Part shown: positions 32,958 through 48,614 of the stretch, piece after piece
Numbering within the stretch: position 1 is the stretch's first letter
How the letters are laid out: each line of letters starts with the position of its first letter
Origin: Syntrophus gentianae
GTDB lineage: Bacteria > Desulfobacterota > Syntrophia > Syntrophales > Syntrophaceae
DNA: 64,000 bases
Assembly: GCF_900109885.1 (NCBI RefSeq)
Contig: NZ_FOBS01000002.1
Location: 124,001 to 188,000 of the forward strand
Reading direction: 5' to 3'
Notes under the pieces: generated by a model
Told to the model about the DNA's origin: nothing
Database searches by the model: none
The model's input: the letters and a program-made list of their open reading frames with translations, nothing else
Position numbers and translations under genes: made by a program

Positions 32958-33141
32958 TGACTTCAATTTAGATAATAGAATTATGGGTAGCAATCCAACA
33001 TTGTGCACTCCGATCCGCCTGTTCTAAAGAGAGCCTCCATGGACGGCGGACACTGGGTGTTGCCGGAAACGGCAGCGCCTCCCGGATTTGGGAAGGAGAA
33101 AGCGATGAAAGGGGATTATATATCGAAAGGAGTTTAGGGTC

Positions 33142-36100
33142 ATGGATGTAAGCAGAAGAGGATTCCTGAAGATTGCCGGCGGCACCCTCGCAGCCGGCGG
33201 CATCGGCTTCAGGCCTTCATTGGCGCATGCTGAACCGTTGAAAATCCAGTATGGCAAAGAAACCACAACGATCTGTCCATACTGTTCCGTGGGATGCAGC
33301 ATCATCGTCACAACACGGAAAGGGAAAGTGATCAACACGGAGGGCGATCCGGACAGTCCCATCAATCGTGGTTCCCTCTGCACCAAAGGCGGGTCCATCT
33401 ATCAGTTGTCGGCCAATGAAAACCGTCTCGGCAAACCCCTTTACCGGGCCCCTTACGCCACGGAATGGAAAGAGGTGGACTGGGAGTGGACGCTGGAACG
33501 GATTGCGGAAAATATCAAAAAAAGCCGCGACAAGAGCTTCCGGGCAACCAATGACAAGGGCGAGGTGGTAAACCGGACGGAAGGAATCGCTTCCGTCGGC
33601 AGCGCTGCCATCGACAATGAAGAGTGTTTCGTGCACCAAAAATTTCTGCGGGGGTTAGGTCTGGTCTATATTGAACACCAGGCCCGTATTTGACACAGCC
33701 CAACTGTACCGGCTCTGGGAGAGTCGTTCGGACGCGGCGCAATGACGAATCACTGGATCGATATCCGGAACAGTGATGTAATTTTAATCATGGGCAGCAA
33801 CCCTGCCTCCAACCATCCCGTCGCCTTCAAGTGGATCACCGCCGCCATGGAAAAAGGGGCCAAGGTGATCTGCGTAGACCCACGGTTCACGCAGTCGGCG
33901 GCGAAGTCCCATGTCTACGCCCCTCTCCGCTCGGGGACGGACATCGCTTTCCTCGGCGGAATGATCAAGTACATTATTGAAAACAAGCTCTACTTCGAGG
34001 AGTACGTCAAGAACTACACCAATGCCTCCTTCCTCGTGAATCCCGATTTCAAGCTCCCCGGCGACAACAACGGCGTCTTCTCGGGGCTGACGGACGGGAA
34101 GTACGACAAGGCCACCTGGTCGTACCAGACCGAAGGGGACGGGCTGATCAAGAAGGATCCCACACTTCAGGATCCCAACTGCGTCTTCCAGCTCCTGAAA
34201 AAGCACTATTCCCGCTACACCCCGGAAATCGTCAACAAGATCACGGGGACGCCGGTTGACAAACTCATCGAGGTCTACAAGCTCTACGGTTCGACAGGAA
34301 CGCCGGACCGGGCAGGCAACGAGCTCTATGCCATGGGCTGGACCCAGCATACCATCGGCACCCAGAATATCCGGACCATGTGCATCATCCAGCTCCTCCT
34401 GGGCAACATGGGCATCCCCGGCGGCGGCGTCCAGGCCATGCGTGGCGAGTCCAACGTTCAGGGCTCCACGGATCACGGGCTGCTGTTCCACATCTGGCCC
34501 GGTTATCTCAGCACGCCCAAGGCGTCTCTGGCGACCCTGGCGGCGTACAACGAAAAAGAGACCCCGACAACCAAGGAACCCAACAGCCTCAACTGGCAGA
34601 AGAACAAACCCAAGTATGTGGCAAGTTTCCTTCGGGCCATGTACGGGACGAACGCTACCCTGGACGAGGCCTACAACCTCCTTCCCAAAATCGACGACGG
34701 GGCCAACTACTCCTGGCTCAACCTCTTCGATCAGATGTACAAGGGAAAGTTCACGGGTTTCTTCGCCTGGGGAATGAACCCCGCGTGCAGCGGCGCCCAT
34801 TCCAACAAGGTCCGCCAGGCCATGGCGAAACTGGACTGGGTGGTCAATGTCAATCTCTTCGACAATGAAACCGGCTCGTTCTGGCGCGGTCCGGGCATGG
34901 ATCCCAAAAAGATCAAGACGGAAGTCTTCATGCTGCCCTGTTGCGCCTCCATCGAGAAGGAAGGGAGCATCATCAACAGCGGCCGTTGGAACCAGTGGCG
35001 CTACAAGGCCGTCGACGCCCCGGGCGTGGCCCTGCCCGACGGTGACATCACCTCGGAGATCTACTTCAAGGTGAAGGAACTTTACGAAAAGGAAGGCGGC
35101 CCCCACAAGGAGGCCCTCACGAAGCTGACCTGGAACTACGGCACGAAGACCTTCTCCGGACATTTCCATTTCGATCCCCATGCCGTGGCCAAGGAAATCA
35201 ACGGCTTCTTTCTCGAAGACAAAACGGTGGAAAATCCCACGAAGAAGGGTGAGATGAAGGAGTTCAAGAAGGGCGATCCCGTGCCGACTTTTGCCTGGCT
35301 GCAGGATGACGGCTCCACGTCCTCCGGATGCTGGGTCTACTGCGGCTCCTATGCCGACAAGGGCAACATGTCAGCCCGCCGCGACGGGAAGAAAGACCCG
35401 ACGGGCATCGGCCTCTACCCCGAGTGGGCATGGGCCTGGCCGGTCAACAGACGGATTATCTATAACGGCGCCTCCGTCGATCCGACGGGGAAGCCCTGGA
35501 GTGCAAAGAAAACAGTCATCAAGTGGACCGGCGACAAGTGGGTCGGCGATGTCCCGGACGGCGTGGGCGATCCCGGGTCCGGAAGGCCTCCCTTCATCAT
35601 GAAACCCGACGGCGTGGCGAGTCTCTTCGGTCCGGGTCTGGCGGACGGCCCCTTCCCCGAGCATTACGAACCTCTGGAGTGCCCGGTGGAGAAAAACCTT
35701 CTGTCCCCCCAGAAGAGCAACCCGACCATCAAGCGGTTCGACAAACCCGGCGTCGGTTCCGATATGGACAAGTATTCCGGCATCGATTCCTGCGATCCGA
35801 AATACCCCTTCATTTGTGCGACCTACCGCATCAGCGAGCACTGGCAGACCGGTCTCCAGACCCGGTGGTGCCCCTGGCTCTCCGAGATGCAGCCGGAAAT
35901 GTGGTGCGAAATGAGCAAAGAACTGGCGAAAGAGCGGGGCATTGCCAACGGCGACATAGTCATCGTCAGCTCCCCTCGGGGCCAGGTGGAGTGTGTGGCC
36001 ATCGTCACACCCCGTTTCAAACCGTTCAACATCAACGGAAACATTCTCCATGAGGTCGGCATCCCCTGGCATTTCGGGTGGATTACGACAAAGGATCGGC

Positions 36101-36237
36101 CTTACAACCCCGGCGACAAGAAGGCGGAGGTCTTCACAAAGGGCGATGCGGCCAATCTCCTGGTGCCGACGATCGGGGACGCCAACACGACGATTCCCGA
36201 AAGCAAGGCCTTCATGGTTAATGTGGTCAAGAAGTAA
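33142..36237 (+). CDS. fdhA: Formate dehydrogenase, selenocysteine-containing catalytic subunit
   Basis: One 1031-aa protein read through UGA at 33691-33693 as selenocysteine 184. The sequence on both sides (YIEHQARI-Sec-HSPTVPALGESFGRGAM) is the FDH-N/FDH-H active site, and the frame is unbroken. Tat signal with RR at 5-6 (SRRGFLKIAGG) cut near AHA-30; [4Fe-4S] ligands Cys45, Cys48, Cys52, Cys80; then the molybdopterin domains and a C-terminal MPT-binding domain. Length matches FdnG (1015 aa). It oxidises formate in the periplasm and passes electrons to FdhB/FdhC. A reader ignoring Sec sees a 183-aa fragment and an 831-aa fragment; that split is not real. Confidence 0.95.
33691..33730 (+). 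promoter_or_regulatory. UGA-Sec codon and candidate SECIS hairpin
   Basis: The UGA is followed 20 nt later by GGCTCT (33711-33716), loop GGG, AGAGTC (33720-33725), a 6-bp stem with one G-U. Bacterial SECIS elements place an apical stem-loop at this distance, within the coding sequence, to recruit SelB. Structure inferred by eye. Confidence 0.7.
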
Positions 36238-36251
36238 GGGGGTGAGCAAAG

Positions 36252-37046
36252 ATGGCTGAATATGCAAAACTTATCGACGTATCGAAATGTACCGGCTGCC
36301 GCGGTTGCCAACTTGCCTGCAAGCAATGGAATTCCCAGCCGGCAAAGCAGACGGAAAATTACGGGACCTATCAGAATCCCCCCGACCTTCAGGCCAATAC
36401 CTGGACGCTGATCCGTTTCCAGGAAGTCGAAGACAAGGGAGGCAAAGTCAAGTGGCTCTTCCGCAAAGACGGCTGCATGCACTGCACGGACGCTGCCTGT
36501 GTCAAGGTCTGCCCCAGCGGCGCCCTTCACACGACGGAGGTGGGAACGGTAGCTCTGAATCGGGAACTTTGTATCGGGTGCAAGGAGTGCGTTTCGGCGT
36601 GCCCCTTCAACATCCCCCGCTATGACCGCAAGACCGATAAGGTCTACAAATGCGACCTCTGCCTGAGCCGTATCAAGGCAGACCTCATCCCGGCCTGCGC
36701 CAAGGCGTGTCCCACGGGGGCCATCACCTTTGGAGAAAAGGACAAGATGGTCAAGAAGGCCTATGCCCGGGTCAAAGAACTAGGCGGTGACGCCAGCGTT
36801 TACGGAGACAAGTTCGTAGGCGGCACCCATGTCATGTATGTCCTGGACGAAAAGCCGGAGGTCTATGAGCATCTGCCGAAGAACCCGAGCGTGCCGCTCT
36901 CCGTCATTCTCTGGAAGGACATCCTCAAGCCTCTGAGCCTCCTGGCTGCCGGCGGCGTCATTGCCGGTTCGTTCCTGCATTACATTATCCACGGGCCCAA
37001 ACTGCCTGATGAGGAGTCGGGTCAAGAAACGAAGGGAGGGGAATAA
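36252..37046 (+). CDS. fdhB: Formate dehydrogenase iron-sulfur subunit
   Basis: 264 aa, FDH-N beta-type electron-transfer subunit. Four ferredoxin-type clusters are seen: CTGCRGCQLACKQWN near residue 14, CMHCTDAACVKVCPSGA near 78, CIGCKECVSACPFNIP near 109 and CDLCLSRI...CAKACPTGA near 135. A single C-terminal membrane helix (LSLLAAGGVIAGSFLHYII) anchors it with the cytochrome subunit. It follows fdhA by 14 nt with GGGGTGAG as ribosome site. Electrons pass from the molybdopterin subunit to heme b of FdhC. Confidence 0.93.
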   Translation: MAEYAKLIDVSKCTGCRGCQLACKQWNSQPAKQTENYGTYQNPPDLQANTWTLIRFQEVEDKGGKVKWLFRKDGCMHCTDAACVKVCPSGALHTTEVGTVALNRELCIGCKECVSACPFNIPRYDRKTDKVYKCDLCLSRIKADLIPACAKACPTGAITFGEKDKMVKKAYARVKELGGDASVYGDKFVGGTHVMYVLDEKPEVYEHLPKNPSVPLSVILWKDILKPLSLLAAGGVIAGSFLHYIIHGPKLPDEESGQETKGGE

Positions 37047-37048
37047 CC

Positions 37049-37720
37049 ATGAGAAAAGGATTAATTCAGGCCACGGACTCCTTTGAGCGGATCGTCCACT
37101 GGAGTCTGGCCGTTTCGTGCCTCATCCTGTGCCTGTCGGGGCTGGGAATGATGTTCCATTCCCTGAATTTTCTCGGAACGCCCTTCGGCGGGCTGAAATC
37201 GTTGAAATACATCCACAATTTAACGGCGCTCTTCTTTCTTCTGGCGCTGGTCTTCACCGTCCGCATGTGGTGGAAAGAGGCGGGAATCTTTGTCTTTCCC
37301 GAAGACCTGGACTGGATCAAATGCGCCGGCGGTTATCTGTGGCATGTGGACAAGGTGCCCGAAGTGGGCAAATACAATCCCGGCCAGAAGATGTTCTTCC
37401 TGGTTGTGGCGGGCGGCGGGGCGGCCATGATCTTCTCCGGACTGATCATGCTCTTTCCCCTGAACATCCCAGCCATGATCGTCCGGCTGATGTATCTGGT
37501 CCACGCGGCCGGCTTCGTGGCGATCTTCGCCTTCTTTTTCATCCACCTCTACCTGGGAACGGTGGGCTCTCCCGGATCGCTGCCGGCCATGATGACCGGC
37601 TGGGTGACGCGCCCCTGGCTGAAGAAGCAGCACGCCAAGTGGCTTCATGAGATGGAGGAAGACGGGACGCTCATCGTTTACGGCGAAGAGAAACCCTCTT
37701 CCCACGGCCACGGCCATTAA
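37049..37720 (+). CDS. fdhC: Formate dehydrogenase cytochrome b556 (gamma) subunit
   Basis: 223-aa membrane protein with four helices, homologous to FdnI/FdoI. Conserved features include FERIVHWSLAVSCLILCLSG (heme-ligand His in helix 1), KYIHNLTALFFLLALVF in helix 2 and HAAGFVAIFAFFFIHLYLG in the last helix. It would carry electrons to the quinone pool. It starts two bases after fdhB with GGGAGGGG upstream, the last gene of the operon before a terminator. The C-terminus is His-rich (SSHGHGH). Confidence 0.92.
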   Translation: MRKGLIQATDSFERIVHWSLAVSCLILCLSGLGMMFHSLNFLGTPFGGLKSLKYIHNLTALFFLLALVFTVRMWWKEAGIFVFPEDLDWIKCAGGYLWHVDKVPEVGKYNPGQKMFFLVVAGGGAAMIFSGLIMLFPLNIPAMIVRLMYLVHAAGFVAIFAFFFIHLYLGTVGSPGSLPAMMTGWVTRPWLKKQHAKWLHEMEEDGTLIVYGEEKPSSHGHGH

Positions 37721-39655: not shown

Positions 39656-41656
39656 ATGGGAATCGCAGCAGACATCATCATTATCGTTCTCGCCTCTTTG
39701 CTCGGCGGTCTGGTGGCGAAACTCTGCCGGCAGCCGCTGATCCTGGGCTACATCCTGGCCGGTGTCTTCATCGGACCACATACCGGCGGTATTACGGTAT
39801 CCAACGTCCAGGACATCGAAAAACTGGCCGAGATCGGCGTGGCCCTGCTGCTCTTTGCCCTGGGGCTGGAATTCTCCCTTCAGGAGCTGAAACCCGTCCG
39901 GAGAATCGCCCTTCTGGGAACTCCCCTTCAGATTCTTTTAACGGCAGGCTTCGGCTTCGCCATCGGCTCCTGGCAGGGATGGGACTGGGAAACCTCCCTC
40001 TGGTTCGGGGCCCTGATTTCCCTTTCGAGCACGATGGTGATCCTGAAGACCCTCATGAGTCAGGGCTGGATGGGAACGCTTTCCAGCCGGGTCATGATCG
40101 GGATGCTCATCGTTCAGGATCTGGCCGTCGTTCCGATGATGATTATCCTGCCCCAACTGAGTCATCCGGAAACCGGGTTGCCCCTCCTGGTCCTGTCCCT
40201 CCTGAAGGCGGCTGTTTTTCTCCTGCTGATGATCTTTCTGGGCACACAGCTCATTCCCCGGCTTCTGCGGCGAATTGCCGGATGGAACTCCCGGGAACTG
40301 TTCCTTCTCTCCACGATCGCCCTTGGCCTGGGCATCGGCTATGGGACCTACCTCTTCGGTCTCTCTTTCGCCTTCGGCGCCTTTGTGGCGGGAATGGTTC
40401 TCAGCGAGTCGGATTATGGACATCAGGCCTTGAGTGAAATTATCCCTCTGCGGGATGTCTTCAGCCTGCTCTTCTTTGCCTCCGTGGGCATGCTTCTGGA
40501 TCCGGCTTTTTTATGGTCGCACTTGAAAATCCTCTTGATCCTTACGGCCCTGGTGATCCTCGGCAAGGGGCTCATCTTTGCGGGCCTGAGCCGATTGTTC
40601 GCCTACCGCAACGTCGTCCCCCTGGCCGTCGGTCTGGGACTCTTCCAGGTGGGCGAGTTCTCTTTTGTCCTCGCCCAGGTGGGTTTGAAAACGAATTCAA
40701 TCAGCGCCGACCTTTATTCTCTGGTCTTGACCCTCACCGTTGCCACCATGTTTCTGACCCCTTTCCTCTCCAACCTGACCTCGCCGATCTATTCCTTCTT
40801 TCGAGCCCGGTCGAAACAGGAGCCTTTGCAGACCATCAACCTGCCCGATTCCGGCCTGTCGAATCACGTGGTCATTGCGGGGGGCGGTCAGGTCGGTCTG
40901 AACATCGCCAGAATCCTGCATCGCTTTGGCGTCGACTTTGTGGTCATCGAGATCGACTTTCACCGCTTTGAGCAGTTGAAAGCCTTGAGTTTCCCGGCCA
41001 TTTTCGGCGATGCCGGCCAACCGGTCGTCCTGGAGGCGCCGCAGATCCGCCAGGCAAAGCTGCTGCTCATCACCATCCCCTCCGCCATTGTTTCGCAAAC
41101 GATTGCGGCTCATGCCCATGCCCTTCATCCCGAACTGAAGATCTTTGCCCGGGCGATCAGCATCGAGCATATGAAAGACCTCCATTCCCGGGGTGTCTAC
41201 GAAGTGGTGCAGCCGGAGTTCGAGGCCAGCCTGGAGTTTGCCCGTCAAGCCCTGCTGCATTTCCGGATTGCCCCGGATAAGGTCCTCTCCTTTCTGGACG
41301 CGATCCGCTATGAGCTTTATGCGCCCCTTTACGATACCCACGATTCATACCGGACGCTTTCTCAGCTTCAAAGCGCCTCCCGGTTACTGGAACTGAACTG
41401 GATCGAGCTGCCCGGGAAAAGCCTTCCGGTCGGCCGTACCATCAGGGAGTTGCAGATTCGCAGCCTGACCGGTGTTTCCGTCGTTGCCGTCATCCGGGGA
41501 AAGACCCTTCATCCGAATCCCGCTCCGGATTTTTCCTTCCAGGACCTGGATCTGGTCGGCATCCTGGGCGATGCCGACCAGATGCAGAGCTTCGCCGACT
41601 GGCTAAAGGGAAACCCGACGGGAGCGAATACAGGCCCTGCCCCGGACTCTCCCTGA
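39656..41656 (+). CDS. Monovalent cation:proton antiporter-2 family protein (KefB-like)
   Basis: 666-aa antiporter of the CPA2 family. About 12 membrane helices to residue 390 ([45 protein letters not shown]) are followed by a TrkA-N (RCK) domain from about residue 400 with the NAD-binding motif [20 protein letters not shown], and a TrkA-C domain from about 575. It exchanges K+ or Na+ for H+ under nucleotide control of the RCK domain. Start ATG 39656 is 42 nt after the NifX-type gene. The glutathione regulation typical of KefB/KefC cannot be confirmed. Confidence 0.9.
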
Positions 41657-41878
41657 GGGATACACTCAGATCCATCTTGATATTTCCTTCCTCCCGCTTT
41701 TATTCGCTCTCCAGATTGACACGCTTCTTGCAAAGTTTCGCCGGCAGGTAATGACAACACGGAAATTCAACAGTTTCACCCCCTGATTTCTTAAACGATG
41801 ACACCACCTGGAAAAGGCACTCTCTTTCCAGCAGATTTTAATCTTATTCCGCGAATAGACAAGGAGGCAACGGGAAAG

Positions 41879-43867
41879 ATGGCATTAGACAAAAACATGA
41901 GGATTATCCTGGCTGAAGACGGCGGCACCATGCGGAAAATGGAAGTCCGGATACTGAATCAGATCGGTTTTGAAAATATCGCGGCCTGCCAGGATGGCGT
42001 CGAAGCCATGCGGGAACTCGAATCGGCCGGAGAAGCCAGTCTGGTCATCTCTGACTGGAACATGCCGAACAAAAACGGCATGGAACTTCTGCAGGAGATG
42101 CGCGCCGATCAACGCTTTGCCTCTATTCCCTTCATCATGGCGACTGGTCAGGGCGACAAGCAGTATGTGGCCCAGGCCATGGAAGCCGGGGCCAATGGCG
42201 TTGTCGCCAAACCGTTTTCACCCGATGAGTTGAAAAGTCTTATTGAGCAGATTTTTGGTGTTGCTCAGGAAAAATCCGTCCCCCCTGTGCCGGCGGGCCT
42301 GGAAACGGATACCCAGGGAAAGCCGATCCTCAAGGTGGCGCACATCCAGATCACGGACCACCTGGCGCTGGGCGTCATGAAATCGTTGATCCATACGCAT
42401 CAGGCAGAATCCCGCACCTTTACTCTGGAAACGGTCTGTATGCCGAACTGGAACCGCGTCCAATCTGCGCTGGAGACCGGAGAGGTCAACGCCGCCTTTA
42501 TTCTGGCCCCCATTGCCATGGACCTCTTCAATTACGGAACGCCGATCCGTCTCGTCCTGTTTGCCCACCGCAACGGCAGCATCATGGTCCGCAGCAAGAC
42601 AGGCCAGTATGGAAAAATCCAGCAACAGTTTTTCAAACACCGGACCTTCTACATCCCTCACAAGATGTCCATTCATCACATGCTGGCCCATAAATATTTC
42701 TCGGAGATGGGCCTGAAGCCGGGAATGGCCGGAGGCGGCGCCGTCAATCTTCTCCTCGACGTCGTGGCGCCGGTCAATATGCCGGAATTTCTGGCGGATA
42801 ACCCCAGTTCCTGCGGATTCATGGTTGCCGAACCCATCGGCTCACGTGCGATCGCCTCGGGGATTGCCGAACGCCAGTTCCTTTCCGGGGAGATGTGGGC
42901 CAATCATCCCTGCTGCGTCGTCGTGTTTCGTCAGGAATTCCTTGACCAGCATCCGGAAGCGGTCCATGAGTTCACCCGGATTCTCGTCCAGGCAGGTCAG
43001 TTTATTCATCAGGAACCGGAAAAGGCATCAGAAATCGCCGTCTCCTTCCTCGATCCCGAAGGGAAACTGGGGTTGAAGGCCCCCTTGATCCGTCAGGTCC
43101 TTTCCGAACCGATGGGCATTAAAACGGATGACCTGTATCCATCCATTGAAGATCTCGATATTATTCAACGCTATATGAATGAGAACATGAATATCGGATC
43201 GCTGATCGACTTGAACTCCTTTGTGGATTTAAGATTCGCTCAAGCAGCCTGTCCGGATAGAATTCGGGACGCTGCAGCGCAGCTCGACTCATCCGAAACC
43301 GCTACGGGAACCGTATCCGAAGGAAGGAAGGAACGGGAGGACTCCAGAACGGAGCTCAAGATCAAATCCCTCAATACCTCATCAGCCCGGGAGGGCAAAT
43401 ACCTGGTCTTTCAACTGGCGGATGAACGGTACGGCGTTTCCGTGATGGACGTCAGAGAGATCATTCAGATGCGGAGAATTACCTTCGTCCCCAATATGCC
43501 GGGTTTTTACAAAGGAACCATCAATCTGCGCGGAAAGGTCATTCCCGTCACGGATCTGCGTCTGACTCTGGGAATGGCTCCCATCGATTACGATGACCGT
43601 ACCTGCATCATCATTCTTGAAATGGCCGGCGCCACGGGTTCGACCCTGGTAGGGGTCACCATGGATGCCGCCGTGGAAGTGCTGGACATTCAGGAGGATA
43701 AAATTCAGGACACGCCTTATTTCGGAGAACGGGTCAACACCAGTTTTATCACCGGTCTGGCCAGGACCAACAACAAGACCACGACCCTGCTGGATATTGA
43801 CAAGCTCTACGGCGCCGACAGCGTAATATTTAATGCTCCGGCCGCCAACGCTCAGGCCCTTTGTTGA
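41879..43867 (+). CDS. Receiver / nitrate-binding-protein-like / CheW fusion
   Basis: 662 aa, no signal peptide or membrane helix, so cytoplasmic. Residues 1-127 form a CheY-type receiver (Glu13/Asp14 pocket, acceptor Asp59, Thr89, Lys111). Residues about 150-450 resemble the substrate-binding protein of ABC nitrate/sulfonate transporters (NMT1/NrtA type: KVAHIQITDHLALGVMKSLI, MPNWNRVQSALETGEVNAAF). Residues about 500-662 are a CheW domain (EGKYLVFQLADERYGVSVMD, VPNMPGFYKGTINLRGKVIP). The ATG at 41798 lacks a ribosome site; 41879 has AAGGAGG. A binding fold inside the cytoplasm bolted between chemotaxis domains is unusual; the ligand is unknown. Confidence 0.82.
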   Translation: MALDKNMRIILAEDGGTMRKMEVRILNQIGFENIAACQDGVEAMRELESAGEASLVISDWNMPNKNGMELLQEMRADQRFASIPFIMATGQGDKQYVAQAMEAGANGVVAKPFSPDELKSLIEQIFGVAQEKSVPPVPAGLETDTQGKPILKVAHIQITDHLALGVMKSLIHTHQAESRTFTLETVCMPNWNRVQSALETGEVNAAFILAPIAMDLFNYGTPIRLVLFAHRNGSIMVRSKTGQYGKIQQQFFKHRTFYIPHKMSIHHMLAHKYFSEMGLKPGMAGGGAVNLLLDVVAPVNMPEFLADNPSSCGFMVAEPIGSRAIASGIAERQFLSGEMWANHPCCVVVFRQEFLDQHPEAVHEFTRILVQAGQFIHQEPEKASEIAVSFLDPEGKLGLKAPLIRQVLSEPMGIKTDDLYPSIEDLDIIQRYMNENMNIGSLIDLNSFVDLRFAQAACPDRIRDAAAQLDSSETATGTVSEGRKEREDSRTELKIKSLNTSSAREGKYLVFQLADERYGVSVMDVREIIQMRRITFVPNMPGFYKGTINLRGKVIPVTDLRLTLGMAPIDYDDRTCIIILEMAGATGSTLVGVTMDAAVEVLDIQEDKIQDTPYFGERVNTSFITGLARTNNKTTTLLDIDKLYGADSVIFNAPAANAQALC

Positions 43868-44002
43868 CGGCCGCACTAACCGAGTCTCTTCACTGAAGAA
43901 TGATCCTATCTTTATGGGAAAGCGTTTGATTTATCCGTACTGATGATCTAAAAAGGTCCCCAGGATTATTGCTGAAATGTCTTGGTCATACTGGGGAACC
44001 GG

Positions 44003-46543
44003 ATGTCAAATAAAGAAGCTACTGCCCGTATCAAAATCAACAAGCTGCTCGAAGCGGCAGGCTGGCGCTTCTTCCCGGAAGGGAGCGCACCCGCCAACAT
44101 CCGTCTTGAACCCAGCGTGACGATCAAATCATCCGATCTGGAAGCCCTTGGCAAGAACTTCGAGAAGACAGGCAAGGGCTTCATCGATTTTCTGCTCTTA
44201 GACACGAAAGGCTTCCCGCTTCTCGTCCTTGAGGCCAAATCGGAGGACAAAAACCCGCTCGTCGGCAAGGAGCAGGCCCGCAAATACGCCAAGTCCCAGA
44301 ACTGCCGCTTCGTCATCCTCTCCAACGGCAACCTGCACTACTTCTGGGATCTGGAGCGCGGCAATCCTTACATCATCACGTCTTTCCCGACACCGGACTC
44401 GTTGACCGGGTACCGGAAAGTTTCACCTAATCCGGATCGCCTCAGCGAAGACCAGGTCGGCGACGACTACATTGTCCTGACACAGCGCCCCAACTACTCA
44501 TCCGAAGCGGCATGGAAGAACGAGGCCGAACGCCCCGGCTACATCCAGGCCAACAAGCTCCGCTTTCTGCGGCCTTACCAGTTGAGGGCGATCCATGCCC
44601 TGCAACGGGCCGTGAAAGACGGTAAAGACCGTTTCCTTTTCGAGATGGCCACAGGCACCGGCAAGACACTCGCGGCCGCCGCCGTCATCAAGCTCTTCCT
44701 CCGTTCGGGCAACGCCCGGCGCGTGCTGTTTCTGGTGGATCGCCTCGAACTGGAGGATCAGGCCAAGAAGGCCTTTGCAGCGCTGCTGTCTGCCGACTTC
44801 CAGACGGTGATCTACAAGGAGAACCGGGACGACTGGCGGCGGGCGGAAATCGTTGTCACCACGGTGCAGTCGCTCCTCTTCAACAACAAGTACCAGCGGC
44901 TCTTTTCGCCGACCGATTTCGACTTGGTCATTTCCGACGAAGCCCACCGCTCCATCGGCGGCAACGCCCGCGCCGTCTTCGACTACTTCATCGGTTACAA
45001 GCTCGGCCTTACCGCCACGCCCCGCGATTACCTCAAGCGGTTCGATAAGGCCAACCCCGCCACCCGCGACCCGCGTGAAGCAGAGCGCCGACTGCTGCTG
45101 GACACCTATCGCACCTTCGGCTGCGAGAACAGCCAGCCCACCTACCGCTACTCGCTGCTCGACGGCGTGAAGGAAGGCTTCCTGATCAACCCCACCGTGG
45201 TGGATGCCCGCACCGAAATCACCACGGAACTCCTTTCCGAAAAGGGCTTCGTCGCCTCCTTTTCCGACGATGCCGGCGAAGACCGGGAGGAGGCCTACAA
45301 GCAGCGTGAATTCGAGAAGCGTTTCTTCGCCGACGCCACCAACCAGCTCTTCTGCAAGACCTTTCTGGAAAACGCCCTGCGCGATCCGGTCAGCGGGGAG
45401 ATGGGCAAATCCATCATCTTCGCGGTCAGCCAGAACCACGCCGCCAAGCTGGCACAGATCCTCAACTCGATGGCCGACCGCATGTTCCCCGGCAAATACC
45501 AGTCCGACTTCGCCGTACAGGTCACCTCGCAGATCCCCGACGCCCAGCTGTTCACCATCAACTTCAGCAACAACAACCTGCTCGGTTCGGCTAACTTCCT
45601 GCCGGCCTACAAGACCAGCAAGGCCCGCGTCTGCGTCACCGTCGGCATGATGACCACCGGCTACGATTGCACCGACCTCCTCAATCTCGGTCTTTTCCGG
45701 CCCATCTTTTCGCCCACGGACTTCATCCAGATCAAAGGACGCGGCACCCGCAGACACAACTTCCTGGAGCAGCTCTTTGACGAGAACATCAAGGAAGGCG
45801 TGACGCGGCCGCAGAAGACCGCCTTCAAGCTCTTCGACTTCTTCGCCACCTGCGAATACTTCGAGGAAAAATTCAAATACGATGAGGTGATCAAGCTGCC
45901 CCGGCCGCAGGGAAAAGGCCGCGATGACGGCGGAGACACCGGCCCGGTAACACCTGGAGGCATCTACGCGTATCCGGGAGCGGACATCCTCGAGATGATC
46001 AAGGAAGAGACCATCGGCCTTAACGGCATGAAGATCGACCGCATGTTCTTCGAGAAATTCGAAGACACCGTGCGCGAGAACGAGATGATCGCCGCCGCCG
46101 TCGAGTCAGGACAGTGGGATCGCGTCATCGATTATGTGAACCGCGAGGTCTTCGATAAACCTGAGGAGTACTACACCCTCGACAAGCTGCGTAAAGCCGC
46201 CGCCGTGGACCGCCGCCTGACCCTGCGCGAAATCCTCGAAAAAATCTTCGGCCTCATCCCGCGCTTCAAGTCCAAGGACGAACAGCTGGAAGAGGAGTTT
46301 GCCAAATTCGTCGCCGACACCAAGCCCGAAGAGGCCGAGGCCATCCCGGCCATCAAGACCTACTTCAAGGCCTACGTCACCAGCGACCAGGTGCGCCACA
46401 TCATCGAGAGCCGCCAGTTCACCGATCTGGCCACCAACCCGGTCTTTTCCACCCGCGACTTCCGCGCCGTCCCGGAGAAGTACCGCACGCTCATTCCTGA
46501 ATACATCAAGGACTACGTCTCCTTGAACCAGTTCGCCGCATAG
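44003..46543 (+). CDS. hsdR: Type I restriction enzyme R subunit
   Basis: 846 aa, apparently complete. The N-terminal nuclease domain holds the PD-(D/E)XK-like LLVLEAKSED with a QARKYA motif downstream. Helicase motifs include Walker A MATGTGKTLAAAAVIKLF near residue 215, DEAHRSIGG near 312 and a motif VI-like KGRGTRRHNF near 579. A C-terminal EcoEI-type R domain follows (SFGL-free, ending in SLNQFAA). ATG 44003 is preferred over an upstream in-frame TTG. With no functional HsdM/HsdS in the window, the enzyme cannot form a normal restriction complex here. Third positions are markedly C-rich versus neighbours, hinting at transfer. Confidence 0.9.
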   Translation: MSNKEATARIKINKLLEAAGWRFFPEGSAPANIRLEPSVTIKSSDLEALGKNFEKTGKGFIDFLLLDTKGFPLLVLEAKSEDKNPLVGKEQARKYAKSQNCRFVILSNGNLHYFWDLERGNPYIITSFPTPDSLTGYRKVSPNPDRLSEDQVGDDYIVLTQRPNYSSEAAWKNEAERPGYIQANKLRFLRPYQLRAIHALQRAVKDGKDRFLFEMATGTGKTLAAAAVIKLFLRSGNARRVLFLVDRLELEDQAKKAFAALLSADFQTVIYKENRDDWRRAEIVVTTVQSLLFNNKYQRLFSPTDFDLVISDEAHRSIGGNARAVFDYFIGYKLGLTATPRDYLKRFDKANPATRDPREAERRLLLDTYRTFGCENSQPTYRYSLLDGVKEGFLINPTVVDARTEITTELLSEKGFVASFSDDAGEDREEAYKQREFEKRFFADATNQLFCKTFLENALRDPVSGEMGKSIIFAVSQNHAAKLAQILNSMADRMFPGKYQSDFAVQVTSQIPDAQLFTINFSNNNLLGSANFLPAYKTSKARVCVTVGMMTTGYDCTDLLNLGLFRPIFSPTDFIQIKGRGTRRHNFLEQLFDENIKEGVTRPQKTAFKLFDFFATCEYFEEKFKYDEVIKLPRPQGKGRDDGGDTGPVTPGGIYAYPGADILEMIKEETIGLNGMKIDRMFFEKFEDTVRENEMIAAAVESGQWDRVIDYVNREVFDKPEEYYTLDKLRKAAAVDRRLTLREILEKIFGLIPRFKSKDEQLEEEFAKFVADTKPEEAEAIPAIKTYFKAYVTSDQVRHIIESRQFTDLATNPVFSTRDFRAVPEKYRTLIPEYIKDYVSLNQFAA

Positions 46544-46558
46544 CGTAAAGGAGAAAAC

Positions 46559-46909
46559 ATGGGCAAGAGCAGCAAAACCACCATTGAAGTACAGGGTACC
46601 GCTATCACGGTGCTGTCCCAGAAAGAAAAGTATTTCATTTGCCTCACGGACATAGCACGTGTCAAGAACTCCGACCGCTCCGACGACCTTGTGCGCAACT
46701 GGATCAGAAACCGTAACACAGTTGAATTTCTAAGCATTTGGGAGAAGCTAAACAATCCTGATTTTAATTCCGTCGAATTCGACGGAATTAAAATGCTGGC
46801 TGGGCTGAACAGCCCGCAAAGCGACCGCCTCAAACGCCTCAATGAAATCGCCATTCGTCAGATGCAGATACTCACCGCAACGCCCGCGCTGAAACAAATC
46901 AAGGAATAA
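46559..46909 (+). CDS. KilA-N domain protein with internal deletion
   Basis: 116 aa, less than half the usual ~250-300. It keeps the KilA-N DNA-binding start (ICLTDIARVKNSDRSDDLVR, NWIRNRNTVEFLSIWEKLNN) and ends in the family's usual C-terminal stretch (PQSDRLKRLNEIAIRQMQIL), but the middle is missing; the join lies near AGLNSPQSD. The frame is intact, with a good AAAGGAGAAAAC before ATG 46559. Composition is AT-richer than hsdR and hsdM around it. KilA-N cargo genes are common inside type I restriction loci. A perfect palindrome spans 46761-46794. Confidence 0.75.
   Translation: MGKSSKTTIEVQGTAITVLSQKEKYFICLTDIARVKNSDRSDDLVRNWIRNRNTVEFLSIWEKLNNPDFNSVEFDGIKMLAGLNSPQSDRLKRLNEIAIRQMQILTATPALKQIKE
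46761..46794. repeat. Perfect 34-bp palindrome inside the KilA-N gene
   Basis: The sequence equals its own reverse complement over all 34 bp, with an EcoRI-type GAATTC at the centre and ATTTTAATTCCGTC as its arm. It lies within the coding sequence (FNSVEFDGIKM). As RNA it could form a 15-bp-plus hairpin; as DNA it could be a binding site or cruciform. Confidence 0.9.
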
Positions 46910-46917
46910 TCATCACC

Positions 46918-47784
46918 ATGCTCGACACCGACACCAAACGCCGCATCGATACCGCCCGCGATATTCTCGTGGGCAAGGTGCCCGATCCCAAGAGCCAGGT
47001 CGAGCAGATCACCATTGCCCTGATTTATAAGTTCATGGACGACATGGACGCCGAAAGTGAGGAGTACGGCGGCCAGCGCAAGTTCTTCGCCAATGGGTTT
47101 GCCCGCTACGGCTGGGCCAAACTCATGCGCTCCGGCCTGGGCGGCCACGAGACCCTGAACCTCTATGCCGAGGCCATCGCCAAGATGCCGGAGGACCCCG
47201 GCATTCCGCCGCTCTTCCGCGACATCTTCAAGAACGCCTATCTACCCTACCGCGACCCGGAAACGCTCAAGATGTTCCTCAAGATCATCGACGAGTTCAA
47301 CTACGACCACAGCGAGCACCTTGGCGACGCCGGACAGTTCCGCACTCCGCGCCACATCATCGATTTCATGGTCGAAATCACCGACCCGAAGAAGACCGAA
47401 ACCGTGCTTGATCCGGCCTGCGGCACCGCCGGGTTCCTGATCTCCTCCTACAGGCACATCCTGAAGGCCAACACCGACGCCAAAGGCAATACCACCCTGA
47501 CACCGGACGAAAAGGGCCGTCGGGTAAAAAACTTCAAGGGCTACGACATCTCGCCCGACATGGTGCGCCTGTCGCTGGTCAACCTGTACCTGCACGACTT
47601 TCCCGACCCGCACATCGCCGAGTACGACACCCTCTCCACGCAGCAAGCCATTGTCGCCGAGATCGAGGCCGAGCAAGCACTGGTCGCCGCCAACCACGAA
47701 TTGATCGTCCGCTTTGAGAAGAAGATCCAAACCACCCTCGCCCGCGTCTGGGGGGAGGACGAACCGGACCCGGCGGAGGCGTGA
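46918..47784 (+). pseudogene. hsdM: Internally deleted type I methyltransferase subunit (hsdM remnant)
   Basis: 288 aa; full HsdM proteins are 480 or more. The N-terminal helical domain (LDTDTKRRIDTARDILVGKV) and SAM motif I (DPACGTAGFL near residue 166) are present, up to IAEYDTLS near 241. The sequence then jumps to a C-terminal coiled-coil tail (QQAIVAEIEAEQALVAANHE...ARVWGEDE) that belongs at the end of HsdM or M-S proteins. The catalytic NPPF motif and everything between are absent, so it cannot methylate DNA. The deletion is in frame. No hsdS follows. Confidence 0.85.
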
Positions 47785-47933: not shown

Positions 47934-48614
47934 ATGTATCAACTCGTGCTGGTCCGTCATGGACAAAGCGTCTGGAATCGGGACCATCTCTTTGCGGGTT
48001 GGACGGATGTGGATCTGACGGCAAAGGGCGCCGGGGAAGCCAGGGCGGTCGGGAAGCTGCTCAAGCAGCAGGGACTGACCTTCAATATCGCCTTTACCTC
48101 GCTCCTGAAGCGGGCGATCCGAACCTCGTGGATTCTCCTCGATGAAATGGATCTTCTGTGGATTCCGGTCATCCGCGACTGGCGGCTCAATGAACGCCAT
48201 TACGGGGCTCTTCAGGGACTCAATAAAGCCAGACTTGCCGAGGAATACGGGGAAAAGCAGGTGAAAAACTGGCGACGCGGCTTCGATGTCCGCCCGCCGG
48301 CGCTGACTGAGAACGATCCGCGTTTTCCGGGGCATGACCGTCGCTATCGGGACATCCCCCGGCAGCAACTTCCCACAGGGGAATCGTTGCGGGATACCGT
48401 GGAGCGACTCCTGCCGGCCTGGAACAACCTCATCATGCCGGCCATCCGGAGGGAGCAGCAGGTCCTGATCGTCGCCCACGAGAACAGCCTCCGGGCTCTG
48501 GTCAAAGTCCTCGAAGAGATATCCGACACGGATATCTCCGATCTCGACATTCCCAGGGGAATCCCTCGGATCTATGAACTGGACCGGTCGCTGAAAGTCG
48601 TCCGTAAATCCTGA
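47934..48614 (+). CDS. gpmA: 2,3-bisphosphoglycerate-dependent phosphoglycerate mutase
   Basis: 226 aa. Interconverts 3- and 2-phosphoglycerate in glycolysis/gluconeogenesis. The phospho-histidine motif is LVRHGQSVWN (His9; usually RHGES), followed by FAGWTDVDLT, the substrate-binding LNERHYGALQG and the second-histidine motif VAHENSLRAL (usually AHGNSLR). Family length is 230-250. The two small changes are in positions that tolerate variation. ATG 47934 follows GGAAGGAATCT. It converges on the glycerate kinase gene, which makes 2-phosphoglycerate, a metabolic neighbour. Confidence 0.93.
   Translation: MYQLVLVRHGQSVWNRDHLFAGWTDVDLTAKGAGEARAVGKLLKQQGLTFNIAFTSLLKRAIRTSWILLDEMDLLWIPVIRDWRLNERHYGALQGLNKARLAEEYGEKQVKNWRRGFDVRPPALTENDPRFPGHDRRYRDIPRQQLPTGESLRDTVERLLPAWNNLIMPAIRREQQVLIVAHENSLRALVKVLEEISDTDISDLDIPRGIPRIYELDRSLKVVRKS

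Follow-up and report, generated by a model that had tools for sequence, protein, structure and literature searches.

In the stretch of Syntrophus gentianae DNA analysed here (64,000 nt, hereafter the window), one gene joins a CheY-type receiver (REC), an NMT1_2/NrtA-type solute-binding domain and a CheW adaptor, and this three-part protein is real and recurs across the sulfate-reducer phylum. We propose that it is probably a cytosolic ligand sensor that CheW docks in chemoreceptor arrays and that CheA can phosphorylate. This would be an apparently undescribed route for feeding an intracellular signal into chemotaxis.

Domain layout and genomic setting of the fusion gene

The fusion is encoded in a single frame, which is free of stops from 41798 to its stop codon at 43867 (Table 1). 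The ATG at 41879 is taken as the right start because AAGGAGG precedes it by 11 nt. The original prediction had described a CheY-like receiver with all key residues, an NMT1/NrtA-like fold and a CheW adaptor in one cytoplasmic protein without signal peptide, and each of these features was borne out. Pfam matches exceeded the curated cut-offs for REC (E 1.1e-24), NMT1_2 (PF13379; residues 147-387, E 4.4e-24) and CheW (E 4.8e-32), and a PF09084 match scored below its cut-off. The nearest solved sequences were CheY for the receiver, CheW for the C-terminal domain and 3un6 for the middle. There is no signal peptide and, since the receiver occupies the N-terminus, the binding domain is not exported and stays cytoplasmic; the protein agrees with the PF13379 family in profile and fold and departs from it in export. 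A full-length model (mean pLDDT 70, pTM 0.59) does not firmly give the arrangement of the domains.

Table 1. Features of the fusion gene and its upstream region in the window.
Feature	Position	Strand	Basis
Whole gene, REC-NMT1_2-CheW fusion, 662 aa	41879..43867	+	Pfam profiles; start backed by AAGGAGG
Ribosome-binding site AAGGAGG	41861..41867	+	Read directly
CheY-type receiver, residues 9-122, active-site residues intact	41903..42244	+	Pfam PF00072; closest solved chains CheY
NMT1_2/NrtA-type binding domain, residues about 147-460, cytosolic	42317..43258	+	PF13379; AlphaFold2; structure matches
Variable linker, low confidence, residues 461-503	43259..43387	+	Mean identity 0.13; pLDDT <50 at 462-502
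CheW adaptor domain, residues 507-643, NLRGKVIP motif	43397..43807	+	Pfam PF01584; CheW structures matched
Sigma-54-like site TGACACGCTTCTTGCA, one mismatch	41717..41732	+	6 sites vs 8.4 expected (window, up to 2 mismatches)

Conservation was examined in 24 fusions. The receiver retains the full residue set of an active CheY-type receiver, namely the acidic pair E13/D14, the phospho-acceptor D59, T89 and K111, all invariant, and L550 and R551 of the CheW domain are likewise invariant. Mean identity to the window protein was highest for the binding domain (0.59), followed by REC (0.48) and CheW (0.44), and both linkers are free to vary (0.21 for the first; second in Table 1).

The neighbours of the gene in the window are an antiporter and a restriction remnant, not che genes, and no NMT1-type ABC operon lies alongside. 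A sigma-54 promoter for the fusion gene was rejected, as there is a single one-mismatch site and the window contains no more such sites than expected by chance. Within 41500-44100, neither a coding-strand sigma-70-like site nor a terminator-like site was found. The type I restriction remnant (43982-47784, +) comprises an EcoAI-like HsdR, a KilA-N protein and an HsdM-like frame of 288 aa, whose match to the N6_Mtase profile breaks off at position 133 of 311; no HsdS was seen between it and a phosphoglycerate-mutase-like frame at about 47934-48614. Elsewhere in the window, a formate dehydrogenase-N alpha subunit (33064-36237, +) contains an in-frame TGA whose context (IEHQARIUHSPT) is of the selenocysteine type. 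With TGA read as U, it has 1057 aa and scores far above the TIGR01553 cut-off; the open-reading-frame list puts its start too late (33742), and the beta and gamma subunits follow at 36252-37720.

Relatives and descent of the fusion family

One other fusion (65% identical) was present among the 155 genomes of the host's class. A scan of 84,980 species genomes gave 27 close relatives, all Desulfobacterales-type or 'Deltaproteobacteria', plus one weak planctomycete match. Among 395 sampled genomes of the phylum, 21 contained fusion-sized frames (645-734 aa, E <1e-120; one of the 21, ended by its contig, is only 420 aa), and a second set of scores belonged to binding-protein frames of 320-570 aa (E >1e-85). 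The plasmid matches listed were transporter-type proteins with 23-28% identity, none covering 80% of the query. Because the same fusion was found in many independent genomes, it is not an assembly artefact.

When relatives were examined by Blast with the three domains, REC-NMT1-CheW was found in about 25 distinct proteins and REC-NMT1 alone in 17. The parts might have been two genes in relatives; instead, the former proteins carry all three domains in a single frame. No split pair was seen: the CheW-less relatives are a nested clade without CheW as a neighbouring gene. One gene encodes a tandem duplication, REC-NMT1-REC-NMT1-CheW (1205 aa, L036:5497-9114), with CheX and CheY-like genes downstream.

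In a maximum-likelihood tree, all REC-bearing forms were one clade (support 100/100) and the CheW-less forms were one Desulfobacteraceae clade (100/100) nested among CheW-bearing forms, which makes the full fusion the most likely ancestral form. Support is just 93/65 at the innermost nesting fork but 98/89 at the next fork outward, so loss of the CheW domain in the nested clade is the likelier reading. Downstream of a Desulfatibacillum fusion lies a stand-alone cytosolic NMT1_2 protein (306 aa, L033:8102-9022 = L090:10392-11312). It matches the window domain with E about 1e-80 and sits at the base of the cytosolic group in the tree, and is possibly a relic of the pre-fusion sensor.

Fold and candidate pocket of the binding domain

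The AlphaFold2 model of the middle domain, built with 26 relatives as input, reached a mean pLDDT of 86.6 and a pTM of 0.87, and the domain is confidently predicted to be a complete binding-protein fold. The closest structure was 3un6 (Z 35.0, 289 residues, 2.1 A; Foldseek, VIA-align), an ABC binding component from Staphylococcus aureus with zinc in the solved structure. NrtA (Z 34.2) and CmpA (Z 33.9) came next, together with the C-terminal cytosolic domains of CmpC and NrtC (Z 31-33, with 32 for CmpC), with taurine, sulfonate and Thi5-like proteins behind (Z 21-27). In agreement, a profile search with the domain returned 3un6 first, then CmpC/NrtC and NrtA. Absence of a binding-protein fold in this region had been a possible outcome, and a strong match was obtained instead.

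Thi5, MqnD and DszB have the same fold (Z about 19-24) and the invariant His and Cys residues described below could be catalytic, which would suit an enzyme-like NMT1/Thi5-type protein and not a sensor. We consider this highly improbable, since 3un6, NrtA, CmpA and the CmpC/NrtC domains are much closer matches (Z 31-35) and it is with binding proteins that the motifs are shared. It is also unlikely that the domain serves only as a structural spacer, or is a dead remnant, in a protein that is mainly a CheV-like adaptor and phosphate sink. Such a role would fit the intact REC and CheW domains, the same two that CheV unites (PMC4742279). However, the binding domain is the best-conserved part of the protein (69 of 312 positions invariant in the 24 fusions), its fold is complete, and the CheW-less clade retains it together with REC.

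Invariant positions in the 24 fusions include A154-H161 (AHIQITDH), W191, H230, I259-P260-H261, S264 and H266, as well as V316-P319 (VAEP), W340 and H343-P344-C345-C346 (W..HPCC). From these, ITDH, W191, H230, IPH..S.H, VAEP and W..HPCC are candidate pocket residues. The nitrate/bicarbonate group (NrtA/CmpA/CmpC) has a Lys in the motif W..HP.K, which contacts nitrate in NrtA. In the fusion this position is Cys346, which aligns with the Lys of HPGK in CmpC and is invariant. Secreted binding proteins that adjoin Ni-CO dehydrogenase genes (TIGR01702; L103, L108) share ITDH, IP..S.H, VAEP and W..H.CC. Inoue and colleagues reported that NitT/TauT transporters occur with clade B Ni-CODH, pointed out the homology to 3UN6 and suggested a role in metal import (PMC6344411). 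The predicted pocket resembles those of Ni-CO-dehydrogenase-operon binding proteins and zinc-bound 3UN6, not those of nitrate binders. Nitrate is disfavoured as ligand because HPCC replaces HP.K, and the motifs, CODH-protein-like in the fusion and HPGK in CmpC, point no further than to a metal or metal-linked ligand as a lead. That an internal metal ion or metal-linked ligand is read phylum-wide by a binding protein of ABC type, moved into the cytoplasm and built into the array, with CheA feedback via its own receiver, is a tentative and rather doubtful extension.

Chemotaxis context, proposed role and known systems

Chemotaxis input is usually ascribed to chemoreceptors, with CheW seen as a passive linker. 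The fusion protein would instead act as a chemosensory input module that is soluble and cytoplasmic. Inside the cell, its NrtA-type domain would close on a small ligand while its CheW domain is seated in the CheW/CheA rings of the chemoreceptor array, and the ligand-dependent conformation, passed through the linkers, would alter CheA kinase activity. Swimming would then follow an internal metabolite or ion besides outside chemicals. CheA may also phosphorylate the CheY-type receiver, which would then serve in feedback or as a sink for phosphate, as has been suggested for CheV. We infer docking in the array, phosphorylation by CheA, ligand binding and the direction of the response. Coupling to arrays and tuning by phosphorylation are suggested by the invariant catalytic residues, the cheD, cheX, cheY and MCP neighbours and the co-occurrence with CheA.

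Chemotaxis genes adjoin several relatives. A CheD gene lies upstream of one fusion (L028), CheX genes follow two (L032 and L036) and a CheY gene precedes another (L035/L087). Directly upstream of the fusion in L097 is an MCP gene whose product has a Cache sensor plus a zinc-binding CZB domain. The CheA dimerisation domain was found in 20/21 fusion genomes vs 10/22 others (Fisher p 0.0006; controls not kinship-matched), with no CheA found in the remaining fusion genome, G128. The host genome encodes CheA, CheB, CheR, two CheD-like genes, CheY genes and seven MCPs, along with four separate CheW proteins and two CheW matches of CheA size; its che cluster adjoins motor-type genes, and the window fusion gene is apart from it. 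This separation, the absence of a CheA match in G128 and the lack of CheW in the Desulfobacteraceae clade count against a sensor in the array.

The CheW-less form in Desulfotignum, Desulfobacula and Desulfamplus belongs to an NMT1-type ABC operon with ATPase and permease, which holds two further NMT1_2 proteins, one secreted and one cytosolic. This arrangement, and the precedent of CmpC and NrtC, which bear such domains as cytosolic transporter regulators (PMC11349869), would suit a transport or metabolism sensor whose main output is the ABC importer or gene expression via the receiver, with CheW secondary. We judge this improbable, as the CheW-less clade is nested among CheW-bearing forms, its operons still adjoin cheD (L044 and L045) and no such operon flanks the window gene. 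In the operons examined, the CheW-less REC-NMT1 gene is directly followed by one for a conserved 215-290 aa protein (KITDPDVIKNGE...; L045:6954-7802, L044:6937-7641, L050:6967-7740); neither of the two tested matched a Pfam family at E 0.01.

Separately, a secreted NMT1_2 protein (L105:6884-7900, genome G170) lies within a complete cheR-cheW-mcp-cheA-cheB cluster encoding CheR-TPR, a double CheW, an MCP, CheA with receiver and CheB. It is a possible periplasmic partner of the cluster's MCP and, as a secreted relative in a che cluster, ties such binding proteins to chemosensory operons outside the fusion too.

Returning to the proposed array-docked sensor, several known systems share parts of its design. 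CheV, like the fusion, is a soluble protein that unites a CheW adaptor with a CheA-type receiver (PMC4742279), but CheV has CheW then receiver and no further domain, whereas the fusion starts with the receiver and separates the two by a 310-residue binding domain. NasS is a cytosolic NrtA-like sensor that works with the receiver protein NasT (PMC3795266). That pairing recurs in the fusion; however, NasS-NasT are two proteins with a nitrate/nitrite ligand and an RNA-binding ANTAR output, and the fusion is one chain with a different pocket and CheW as output domain (no ANTAR match in Pfam). The regulatory domains of CmpC and NrtC are likewise NrtA-type cytosolic regulators, but are joined to an ABC ATPase and carry the HPGK Lys where the fusion has Cys (HPCC). 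3UN6 and the Ni-CODH-associated NitT/TauT proteins are the best structural and sequence match, sharing IT, IP..S.H, VAEP and CC, but are exported transporter components, in contrast to the cytosolic and fused family.

The nearest precedent in kind is CheWS of Treponema denticola, described as a CheW-CheR-like intracellular SAM sensor anchored to arrays (PMC10653840). Both proteins join CheW to a soluble, intracellular small-molecule sensor domain without export signal, and array anchoring is known for CheWS. The CheWS sensor, from a spirochete, has a CheR-like and not an NrtA-type fold, and no receiver is described in it. We group the fusion with these CheW-fused cytosolic sensors, and outside CheV by order and content. 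The original prediction could name no described protein with this domain order, and we found no paper on REC-NMT1_2-CheW. It may be one of the 30 CheW architectures in Pfam that Muok and colleagues counted as unstudied, 12 of which have input domains (PMC10653840); CheW-fused intracellular sensors as such do exist, as CheWS shows, which tempers the claim. The binding-protein fold, whose cytosolic sensor uses known to date lie in transport and gene regulation, would here serve as a cytosolic motility sensor, and this family would make it testable whether bacteria steer, via the array itself, by the level of internal solutes. After the characterised CheWS, it would be a second, unrelated sensor fold on CheW, with a built-in receiver, across an anaerobic phylum.
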